Shown: positions 3,902 through 14,967 of the stretch, piece after piece | Numbering within the stretch: position 1 is the stretch's first letter | Layout: the number at the start of each line of letters is the position of its first letter | Source: a virus | DNA length: 22,420 nucleotides | Strand: one strand, 5' to 3' | IMG/VR virus record: IMGVR_UViG_3300031857_001514 | Span: 1 to 22,420 of that record | Program-made: the position numbers and the translations under genes | Notes under the pieces: generated by a model | Seen by the model: the letters and a program-made list of their open reading frames with translations, nothing else | What the model was told of the DNA's origin: nothing | Databases searched by the model: none

Positions 3902-5278
3902 ATGCCATTTGTTATATTACCAACAAATAGTGCTTCTGGTGGCTACGAAATAACAAATTCTTTAAGATTTAATTCTGCAAGTTCTGATCGTTTAAACAGA
4001 ACTCCTGCTAGTGCTGGTAACAGACAAAAGTACACTTTAAGCTTTTGGGTAAAAAGATCAAAACTATCAACTACACAACAAATTTTAGAAATTGATACAG
4101 GTGCAACTGCAAATTTTTTATACTTTGCATCAGGTTCAGATCAATTAGTTTGGTACTGTTATTCTTCTAGTGGTGGAGTTACAGATTTTTATTTACAACC
4201 AAATCAAGTATTTAGAGATGTTTCTGCTTGGTATCATATCATGTTAGTAGTAGATACTACTTTAGCAACAGCAGACAATAGAGGAAGAATATATGTAAAT
4301 GGTAGTGAAGTAACTTCCATGTTATACAGAACAAACCCAACACAAAATTTAAACACTTTAGTTAATAATACAAATCAACATAACATTAGTGGGGCAAGTT
4401 ATTTAGATCTTTATTTATCTGAAATGTATTTAATAGATGGTCAAGCATTAACACCATCATCATTCGGCGAAACAGACGAAGATACAGGAATATGGAAACC
4501 AAAAGCATACACAGGTACTTATGGAACTAATGGCTTCTACCTGCAATTTAAAAACTCATCATCTCTTGGCACAGATTCTTCAGGAAACGGAAACACATTC
4601 ACAGTAAATAATCTAACTTCTATTGACCAGACTACTGATACTCCTACTAATAATTTTGCTACTATAAATACATTAACTTGTAATGATACAGCTACATTAA
4701 CATCAGCAGATGGTAACTTAACTATAACTGGTGGAAATGATATGGGTGCAACTATTGGTATCACAAAAGGTAAATGGTATTGGGAATCTAAAAGAAGTAA
4801 TACTGGAACTGTTGCACATTGGGGAATTGGATTTACGCAAAGTTGGTATTCATCTACTCAAATAGTAACTGGTAATGGTGCTGGTTATTTTTTTAGAAAT
4901 GATTTTGTTAGTGGTCTAAATGTTAGTAATTCTGGTACTAATGGATTTACAAATATAAGTGCATCTTCAACAGGAAGTTCAGTTGCTAATGGAGATATTA
5001 TTGGTGTTGCTTTAGATTTAGATAGTGCAACAAAATCTGTTACATTTTATCAAAATGGTTCTTCAGTTGCATCAGCTACTTTTTCTTATGATGGAACATC
5101 TAGTATATGTTTTCCATTTATAAGAAATAATAGTGGTGCTCAAAGTCAATTAAACTTCGGCAACCCACCATACTCAGCTAATTCATATACTGATGGTGCT
5201 GGATATGGTAACTTCTCATACAGTGTACCAAGTGGATATTATGCTTTATGCACTAAAAACTTAGCAACATTCGGATAA
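3902..5278 (+). CDS. LamG- and SPRY-domain tail adhesin-like protein
   Basis: A 458-residue protein whose ATG directly follows the previous stop. Residues about 18-185 look like a LamG/concanavalin A-like lectin domain: SLRFNSASSDRL, then KYTLSFWVKRSKL, then SAWYHIMLVVD, GRIYVNGSEV and YLSEMYLIDG. A linker with DSSGNGNTFTVNN and PTNNFATIN follows, a combination I associate with marine phage fibre proteins. Residues about 285-435 resemble a B30.2/SPRY-like sandwich: KGKWYWESK, HWGIGF, GDIIGVALDLDS, VTFYQNGSSV and LNFGNPPY. Both folds commonly bind carbohydrate or protein ligands, so a receptor-recognition or virion surface role is inferred. No peptidase or lyase motif is visible. Confidence 0.7.
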   Translation: MPFVILPTNSASGGYEITNSLRFNSASSDRLNRTPASAGNRQKYTLSFWVKRSKLSTTQQILEIDTGATANFLYFASGSDQLVWYCYSSSGGVTDFYLQPNQVFRDVSAWYHIMLVVDTTLATADNRGRIYVNGSEVTSMLYRTNPTQNLNTLVNNTNQHNISGASYLDLYLSEMYLIDGQALTPSSFGETDEDTGIWKPKAYTGTYGTNGFYLQFKNSSSLGTDSSGNGNTFTVNNLTSIDQTTDTPTNNFATINTLTCNDTATLTSADGNLTITGGNDMGATIGITKGKWYWESKRSNTGTVAHWGIGFTQSWYSSTQIVTGNGAGYFFRNDFVSGLNVSNSGTNGFTNISASSTGSSVANGDIIGVALDLDSATKSVTFYQNGSSVASATFSYDGTSSICFPFIRNNSGAQSQLNFGNPPYSANSYTDGAGYGNFSYSVPSGYYALCTKNLATFG

Positions 5279-14250: not shown

Positions 14251-14259
14251 ATTTTCCCT

Positions 14260-14275
14260 TTATGTTTTTTATATA
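14260..14275 (-). repeat. Copy of a 16-base leader motif shared with 10947-10962
   Basis: TATATAAAAAACATAA on the minus strand lies here just before the Shine-Dalgarno site of the gene at 13996-14250, and again at 10947-10962 just before the gene at 10741-10947. Both copies abut a leftward start codon region. In DNA this AT-rich some matching is expected by chance, but 16 identical bases at equivalent positions is notable. Confidence 0.45.
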
Positions 14276-14280
14276 AAATA

Positions 14281-14308
14281 AATATAGTTATATAAATATT
14301 AATATCAA
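14281..14308 (-). promoter_or_regulatory. Leftward early promoter (candidate)
   Basis: On the minus strand TTGATA (14308-14303), a 16-base spacer and TATATT (14286-14281) form a reasonable sigma70-type promoter, starting transcription near 14274 and giving a leader of about 24 bases with AAAGGGA. An inverted repeat TATAGTT (14283-14289) / AACTATA (14307-14313) spans the promoter and could be an operator. Confidence 0.5.
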
Positions 14309-14324
14309 CTATAAAATGATAAAA

Positions 14325-14333
14325 TGTGGATAA
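14325..14333 (-). promoter_or_regulatory. Perfect DnaA box
   Basis: TGTGGATAA on the plus strand is the exact complement of the consensus DnaA box TTATCCACA. It lies at the edge of the AT-rich tract in the divergent region. TGTGGGTAA at 14408-14416 differs from it at one position. Confidence 0.65.
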
Positions 14334-14374
14334 TTTATACAAGAAATATATCAATTAAAACAATGACTTATTCG

Positions 14375-14403
14375 TTGCCATTTTGTTCTATATTTGATAC
14401 TAG
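14375..14403 (+). promoter_or_regulatory. Weak candidate rightward promoter
   Basis: TTGCCA (14375-14380), a 17-base spacer and TACTAG (14398-14403) preceded by TG-A (extended -10 form). The -10 box is poor. Some rightward promoter is required for the operon starting at 14456, and this is the best match I find. Confidence 0.3.
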
Positions 14404-14408
14404 GGATT

Positions 14409-14434
14409 GTGGGTAAGTGCCTTCCCTTACCCAC
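14409..14434 (+). other. Perfect 9-bp hairpin in the rightward leader
   Basis: GTGGGTAAG (14409-14417) and CTTACCCAC (14426-14434) pair perfectly around the 8-base loop TGCCTTCC. It is the most G+C-rich spot of the control region and lies just upstream of the AGGAG ribosome site at 14446-14450. It may stabilise the 5' end of the mRNA, control translation, or act in DNA as an inverted pair of DnaA-box-like arms. Confidence 0.65.
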
Positions 14435-14455
14435 GTTATATAACTAGGAGTTAAA

Positions 14456-14581
14456 ATGCCTTTAAAATATGGAAAAAAGAACATTGGTAAAAATATATCT
14501 ATGTTAATGAAAGAGGGTCGTGGCAGAAAACAATCAATAGCAATAGCATTATCTCAATCTAGAAAACGCAAACGTAAGTAA
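14456..14581 (+). CDS. DUF6496-like small basic protein (41 aa)
   Basis: A 41-residue gene with a strong AGGAG site 5 bases before the ATG. The product MPLKYGKKNIGKNISMLMKE is followed by GRGRKQSIAIALSQSRKRKR; the G-x-x-R-K-Q-x-I-A-I-A-L-S-x-x-R motif is the hallmark I associate with DUF6496, a family of short basic phage and bacterial proteins of unknown function. It is the first gene of the rightward operon and overlaps the next start (TAATG). The basic character suggests nucleic acid binding. Confidence 0.75.
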   Translation: MPLKYGKKNIGKNISMLMKEGRGRKQSIAIALSQSRKRKRK

Positions 14582-14967
14582 TGCAAATAGCGAAGGCAAA
14601 CATAATTCATTCTGTTAAGCATCAGAAGTTCGTAGCTTCTTTTCCATGTGTCGTTTGTGGCAACGATACTCAAGTTCAATGCTGTCATATTCGTTCTATC
14701 CCTAAAGTAGGTAATGTAGGCAAAGGCATAAGAGATGATAGATTTTGTATTCCAATGTGCTTTACCTGCCATACATTACAACATCAAATAGGCGAATTAG
14801 AGTTCTTCTATAAATTTAATATAAACCCTATTGCAGTCAGTTTAAAATTGGCTATTATATCTCCTTGCAATAAAATTAACCAAGCCAAACAGGAGGGTGC
14901 ATACAATGGAAAACTTAACTATCAAGAACATATCCGAAATAACAAAAAAAGTTCTTTGCAATCATAA
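14581..14967 (+). CDS. HNH-type nuclease, DUF968-like
   Basis: A 128-residue protein with a treble-clef HNH-like zinc site: FPCVVC (Cys23, Cys26), then QCCHIRS (His36), KGIRDDRFCIPMC (Asp52/53, Cys60) and CHTLQH (Cys63, His64, His68). The arrangement C-x2-C ... H ... D-x4-P-x-C-x2-C-H-x3-H resembles DUF968/HNH proteins of phages, some of which sit in recombination or replication modules. The C-terminal part is helical and basic. The start overlaps the upstream stop by one base; the 3' end overlaps the DnaA-like gene by 62 bases. The cut substrate is unknown. Confidence 0.75.
   Translation: MQIAKANIIHSVKHQKFVASFPCVVCGNDTQVQCCHIRSIPKVGNVGKGIRDDRFCIPMCFTCHTLQHQIGELEFFYKFNINPIAVSLKLAIISPCNKINQAKQEGAYNGKLNYQEHIRNNKKSSLQS

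Follow-up and report, generated by a model that had tools for sequence, protein, structure and literature searches.

When an exact DnaA box lies in the gap between divergent genes, beside a gene for a DnaA-like protein, one would readily call the gap a replication origin. The gap studied here, in the virus record IMGVR_UViG_3300031857_001514, raises this question, and an earlier note made from its letters had indeed taken it for a candidate phage origin. We analyzed the whole stretch of 22,420 bases, hereafter the window, whose overall GC content is about 30% and whose divergent gap is A+T rich. From sequence comparisons, the gap is better read as two predicted facing promoters with an RNA hairpin where the early message begins, rather than as an origin.

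The leftward genes comprise small ORFs, an HTH regulator and an exonuclease. Rightward come a 41-residue ORF with an Arg/Lys-rich product, an HNH/DUF968-like ORF, the DnaA-like gene, a methyltransferase and a DnaD-like helicase loader. In the window, the TAA stop of the first ORF overlaps the start of the HNH-like ORF (TAATG), and the start of the DnaA-like ORF overlaps the end of the HNH-like one. Layout and gene content are similar to those of Pelagibacter phage HTVC111P, to which part of the methyltransferase is 67% identical in nucleotides, and the region would best be explained as a divergent promoter region in an HTVC111P-related phage. Searches of cultured phages returned no match to the DnaA-like protein or to the 111-nt hairpin region, and searches of genome contigs none to the exact hairpin sequence or to the protein.

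For comparison, 67 IMG/VR loci encoding the DnaA-like protein were collected, and other queries brought the set to 77 non-identical loci, all of them related and hence not independent. As the loci were partly gathered via the loop sequence of the hairpin, and the analysis set required this loop, unbiased support for loop invariance comes from the DnaA-like set. A loose loop pattern gave mostly unrelated loci, which were removed by stem and gene context.

Table 1. Coordinates of the features of the divergent region in the window.
Feature	Position	Strand	Basis or remarks
Divergent gap	between leftward ORF (end 14250) and rightward ORF (start 14456)		
Exact DnaA box TTATCCACA	14325..14333	-	sequence; exact box in 38/73 relatives
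Predicted leftward promoter: TTGTTT (14363-14358), 18 nt, TATAAA (14339-14334)	14334..14363	-	read by eye
Predicted rightward promoter: TTGCCA (14375-14380), 17 nt, TACTAG (14398-14403)	14375..14403	+	sequence and conservation
Leader hairpin	14409..14434	+	found in 77 non-identical loci, with covarying stem and invariant loop
Hairpin 5' arm GTGGGTAAG	14409-14417		
Hairpin loop TGCCTTCC	14418-14425		
Hairpin 3' arm CTTACCCAC	14426-14434		
First ORF, 41 aa, small, basic, C-terminal SRKRKRK	14456..14581	+	phrog_2423; weak DUF6496
Second ORF, 128-aa HNH/DUF968-like protein	14581..14967	+	DUF968 E 3e-6; PHROG HNH families
GAAGGCA, codon 4 third base through codon 6 of HNH-like ORF	14592..14598	+	complements the loop bases UGCCUUC exactly
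Stand-alone DnaA domain-IV-like DNA-binding protein, 91 aa	14906..15178	+	

The DnaA box and the question of an origin

The earlier note had described the 91-residue protein as an altered DnaA domain IV, and our analysis agrees with a distant domain-IV fold carrying a changed recognition motif. The AF2 model of the protein (pLDDT 92.8) has the DnaA DNA-binding domain 3pvp as its top Foldseek hit, with a probability of 1.00 and a TM of 0.67 but an E of 0.043, and a profile search of the PDB gave weak DnaA matches. Of 15 family members, 11 match the Bac_DnaA_C model (PF08299; best E 1.9e-5), which gives the window protein 17 bits, below the curated cut-off of 31.5. The likeness to DnaA domain IV is one of fold; besides its low score, the protein differs in having no AAA+ domain and in showing KSWFTIY at the position of the DnaA GRDHTTV, so that S-W-F/Y replaces D-H-T. 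The box-recognition motif is exchanged for KSW(F/Y) in all 15 aligned members.

The DnaA box is real and positioned, although not universal. The complement of a perfect box, TGTGGATAA, is present where it had been reported and is the sole TTWTCCACA of the record. Among 73 relatives with enough upstream sequence, 38 have the exact box in their upstream regions, only at -80 to -96 nt from the hairpin, 32 in one orientation and 6 in the other; mononucleotide shuffles yield it in 34 of 21,900 cases. The other 35 are without it, including distant relatives that retain the DnaA-like gene, so gene and box are not an obligate pair. The genes are kept without the box in L002, L017, L024, L032, L034 and L070 as well as in L079, L093, L096, L297, L306 and L310.

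In the window, the box is directly downstream of the -10 hexamer of the predicted leftward promoter, over its predicted start. This TTGTTT-18-TATAAA pair was found by eye, the automatic promoter scorer not having picked it in the window. In relatives, predicted leftward promoters of the form TTGATA-17-TATATT and TTGATT-18-TATAAT overlap the box. Since the box is placed on or immediately after a predicted leftward promoter, an operator role is more economical than an origin. The box would most likely be a less well conserved element of its own, serving host DnaA or the phage protein as an operator of the leftward promoter. Its position coincides with the predicted start of the leftward operon to which the HTH regulator and the exonuclease belong.

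An origin at this place would imply that host DnaA binds here and opens the A+T tract, the phage domain-IV protein modulating its action. Such a mechanism would fit with a positioned exact box found in both orientations among relatives, with a DnaA-fold protein encoded by the phage and with a DnaD-like loader gene nearby. However, seven relative records of 29-33 kb hold at most one exact TTWTCCACA each and no cluster (one in G001 and in G003, one elsewhere in G004, none in G002, G005, G006 and G007), the box is missing from many relatives that retain all the genes, it overlaps a predicted promoter, and the phage protein is devoid of the DHT recognition motif. A local skew minimum does lie here, where the leftward gene block ends, but only in one of three long relatives (G005) is it the minimum of the whole record; this turn coincides with the switch in gene orientation, which may account for it, so that an origin signal is not separable from gene orientation, and we rejected skew as a way of calling an origin because of this confounding. 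Altogether, an origin appears quite improbable. What survives from the earlier reading is the box, its position, which roughly half of the relatives share, and the DnaA-domain-IV-like protein, whereas the replication origin that had been built on them is left weak.

A covarying leader hairpin and its complementary site

A second, one-mismatch copy of the box had also been noticed in the left arm of a perfect hairpin. This copy, TGTGGGTAA, is found at 14408-14416, where it forms the left arm of a perfect 9-bp hairpin, but the arms vary freely among relatives (GTGGGTAAG, GTGGTGTGTA, GTGTGGTAG and others) and the loop is the conserved part, so the resemblance of the arm to a DnaA box is incidental.

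Comparison of the relatives establishes the hairpin far beyond chance expectation. Sixteen distinct stems of 9 to 15 pairs are found around the same 8-nt loop in the 77 loci. The inner seven stem pairs are 100% paired, and all seven show two-sided changes. Double-changed stem cells number 51 against a shuffle mean of 14.1, and the stem covariation score is 1.21, compared with 0.25 for shuffled and at most 0.25 for slid alignments. This is the covariation expected of a conserved structured RNA element. Non-Watson-Crick stem pairs comprise 12 G.T and no A.C, plus two more mismatches that both belong to L296; the presence of G.T but not of A.C pairs places the structure on the rightward RNA. The loop TGCCTTCC is found in all 54 DnaA-like loci having at least 650 nt upstream, and the octamer is the loop of a hairpin wherever DnaA-like loci have enough sequence. 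A search with Rfam 15 covariance models at E up to 10 gave no sensible match to the hairpin. An intrinsic terminator was considered and rejected, as the hairpin is without a T tract and a scan for terminators gave none.

In the 77 loci, the hairpin comes after a predicted rightward promoter. In the main group, the predicted rightward start falls at the base of the hairpin, downstream of a promoter of the form TTGC.A-17-TAcTa. Conservation over 42 distinct upstream sequences extends to the TTGC.A hexamer, to TttTgttctat in the core of the spacer and to the TAcTa block. The generic promoter scan missed this promoter because its rule for the second hexamer demands a final T. The L093-type group has a different upstream sequence, with TATACT just 5' of the hairpin.

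The loop has an exact complement in the HNH-like ORF, about 170 nt downstream of it in the window. At the HNH-like start, the number of contiguous bases complementary to the loop, GAAGG included, is at least six in 77 of 77 loci and at least seven in 73 of 77; GAAGG follows the start codon by 11 nt in 70 loci and by 14 nt in 7. The HNH start is the best site for a duplex with the loop in 70 of 73 leaders.

This distant site near a start codon is conserved beyond coding needs. Codon 4 occurs as CCG, GCG, CGG, AGG, CTG, TTG and, in L323, TGG, thus encoding P, A, R, L or W, and parsimony counts 14 changes at its first base, 18 at its second and a single one at its third, for a gene-wide mean of 7.5 third-base changes per codon. 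The sole exception at this third base is the lineage of L070, L079 and L310, in which the motif is kept about two codons further in the protein alignment, 14 instead of 11 nt from the start. Lys 5 is AAG in all 70 loci where it is part of the motif, in a gene whose remainder uses AAA 507 times versus AAG 204 times. Judging from these codon counts, the conservation of GAAGGC is at the nucleotide level and not for the protein.

Loop and target are both retained in the four leaders without the first ORF (L053, L062, L093 and L097). In L053 and L062, a 4-codon mini-ORF (ATG ATT TTA AAT/AAC TAA) runs right up to the HNH start codon. Overall, the overlap between the first-ORF stop and the HNH start is seen in 65 of the 77 loci, some leaders having no such ORF.

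Other sites for the loop were also considered. Pairing with the ribosome site of the first gene only was rejected, as it amounts to about 4 bp in the window and L105-like leaders are without this site. The ribosome site of the DnaA-like gene (14885-14905 in the window) reads GGAGGGT in the window and GGAAGGT in many relatives, where it is also complementary to the loop and could be either a second loop target or an ordinary ribosome site; it varies, however (AGAAGGAT, AAGTGGT, GGAGGGT in the window), as an ordinary ribosome site would, and was for this reason rejected as the loop target. L105-type loci have a second GAAGGCA in the first ORF, about 112 nt after the hairpin start, which in L105 and L057 slightly surpasses the HNH start as a duplex site. 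Finally, AAACGAATCA recurs shortly 5' of start codons in L093, L103, L105 and HTVC111P leaders, some of them without a clear Shine-Dalgarno sequence.

Proposed repression by long-range pairing and its rivals

We propose that long-range pairing between loop and target controls translation of the early operon, and we lean, if slightly, towards a repression of the HNH-like ORF. The rightward early/replication message would begin with the hairpin, whose invariant loop UGCCUUCC would pair with GAAGGC(A). The paired site would lie 11-17 nt into the HNH-like ORF and the duplex would cover the ORF start, which would most likely hold its translation low; translation of the DnaA-like gene, by coupling to the HNH-like ORF, would be held low as well. 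A ribosome finishing the first ORF, the stop of which overlaps the HNH start, could then melt the duplex. In the four leaders devoid of the first ORF this melting step cannot work as stated, two of them having the 4-codon mini-ORF. What comparison shows is the hairpin and its strand, the invariance of the loop, and a complementary target conserved at the nucleotide level; pairing in the cell, its effect on translation and the direction of this effect, repression and not activation, are what we infer. Loop and target barely vary within the family, so the long-range pair itself displays no two-sided covariation. Moreover, 14% of shuffled loops pair with the target at or below -7 kcal/mol, and some complementarity to purine tracts is expected for a C/U-rich loop and a Shine-Dalgarno-like GAAGG.

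Two rivals deserve most attention, a protein that binds the loop and an activating role of the pairing. RNA hairpins that are bound by a protein typically show this combination of a fixed loop and a variable stem, and the location of the hairpin at the 5' end of the early transcript would suit a nut/put-like antitermination site or the operator of a translational repressor, for which the Arg/Lys-rich 41-aa product of the first ORF would be a candidate binder, for example as the repressor itself. GAAGGC would then be a second recognition site or have some other role. Such a site leaves unexplained why a coding hexamer is fixed as nucleotide sequence and complements the loop in each of the 77 loci, and hairpin and target persist where the leader is without the first ORF; we regard it as unlikely. 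Activation, in which the pairing would bring a ribosome-loading 5' region near the HNH start or keep this start open, like the repZ/repA pseudoknot, seems to us improbable. The layout does recall the I-complex plasmids, with a 5' loop, a short leader ORF with stop/start coupling in 65 of the 77 loci, a predicted long-range loop pairing and, as the controlled gene, the second one of an early/replication module. However, the duplex would lie over bases 11-17 of the ORF, within the ribosome footprint and not upstream of the start, which favours inhibition, and the leader ORF is sometimes missing. One could also consider an element acting as DNA, since TGCCTTC and GAAGGCA are the same double-stranded sequence, present in opposite orientations at the hairpin and at the HNH start, where a phage protein would bind them. 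Stem covariation with G.T but never A.C is left unexplained by such an element, which we hold to be very improbable.

An unchanging loop with its exact complement fixed at the start of the second gene speaks for an RNA switch not yet described, more than for an origin. Such a switch would be a concrete control element, made of RNA and open to test, in the early operon of uncultured phages akin to Pelagibacter phages. It combines stem covariation with a conservation of coding sequence that does not serve the protein, in genomes the regulation of which is otherwise hardly known. This reading also corrects the origin call that a DnaA box beside a DnaA-like gene would invite.

Related leaders and known systems

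HTVC111P (MN698245) and its relatives also carry a hairpin in this position, each with a different, unrelated stem. The loop core of these hairpins, UCUCUCU, shows complementarity to the first-gene ribosome site AAGAGAGAT (AGAGAGA), an observation made on few sequences. The core is constant and the stems are replaced in L092 (HTVC111P, 3960-4075), L328, L331, L332, L333 and L335, and these loci have an extra GAGAGAG about 55 nt upstream of the hairpin. The likeness to the window lies in the position, in a loop complementary to a downstream translation start region and in a stem replaced among relatives; loop, target (the Shine-Dalgarno region of the first gene) and first gene differ. By analogy, the HTVC111P hairpins look like the same design with another loop/target pair. 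The papers found by literature search contain no description of the HTVC111P hairpin, and literature searches for the leader hairpin element likewise found none.

A tentative and rather doubtful extension would be that Pelagibacter-phage relatives share a hitherto undescribed type of RNA switch at the 5' end, with a free-running stem and a fixed loop that gates early replication genes at their start through long-range pairing, loop and target being swapped together between groups (UGCCUUCC/GGAAGGCA in one, UCUCUCU/AGAGAGA in the other). The same loop might also touch the GGAAGG site of the DnaA-like gene and thereby time several genes.

The lambdoid nut/put RNA sites offer one point of comparison, as they form hairpins with a conserved loop and a variable stem near the 5' end of early phage transcripts. 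The leader described here shares these traits and differs from them by its complementary target in a coding region. Another parallel comes from plasmid ColIb-P9, in which a short leader ORF precedes a second gene that is translationally coupled to it, and the loop of a leader hairpin pairs with a distant site close to the start of this second gene. The likeness to this I-complex repZ/repA system is one of layout only, and we claim neither membership nor a sequence relation. Control of repZ/repA translation by a pseudoknot in I-complex plasmids, cited in PMC10724649 and PMC10286972, is nonetheless the nearest mechanism, and PMC10286972 describes the requirement for a leader peptide in this control. 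In contrast to these plasmids, the element would operate here in a phage operon, and its target is inside the coding start of the controlled gene rather than upstream of it.
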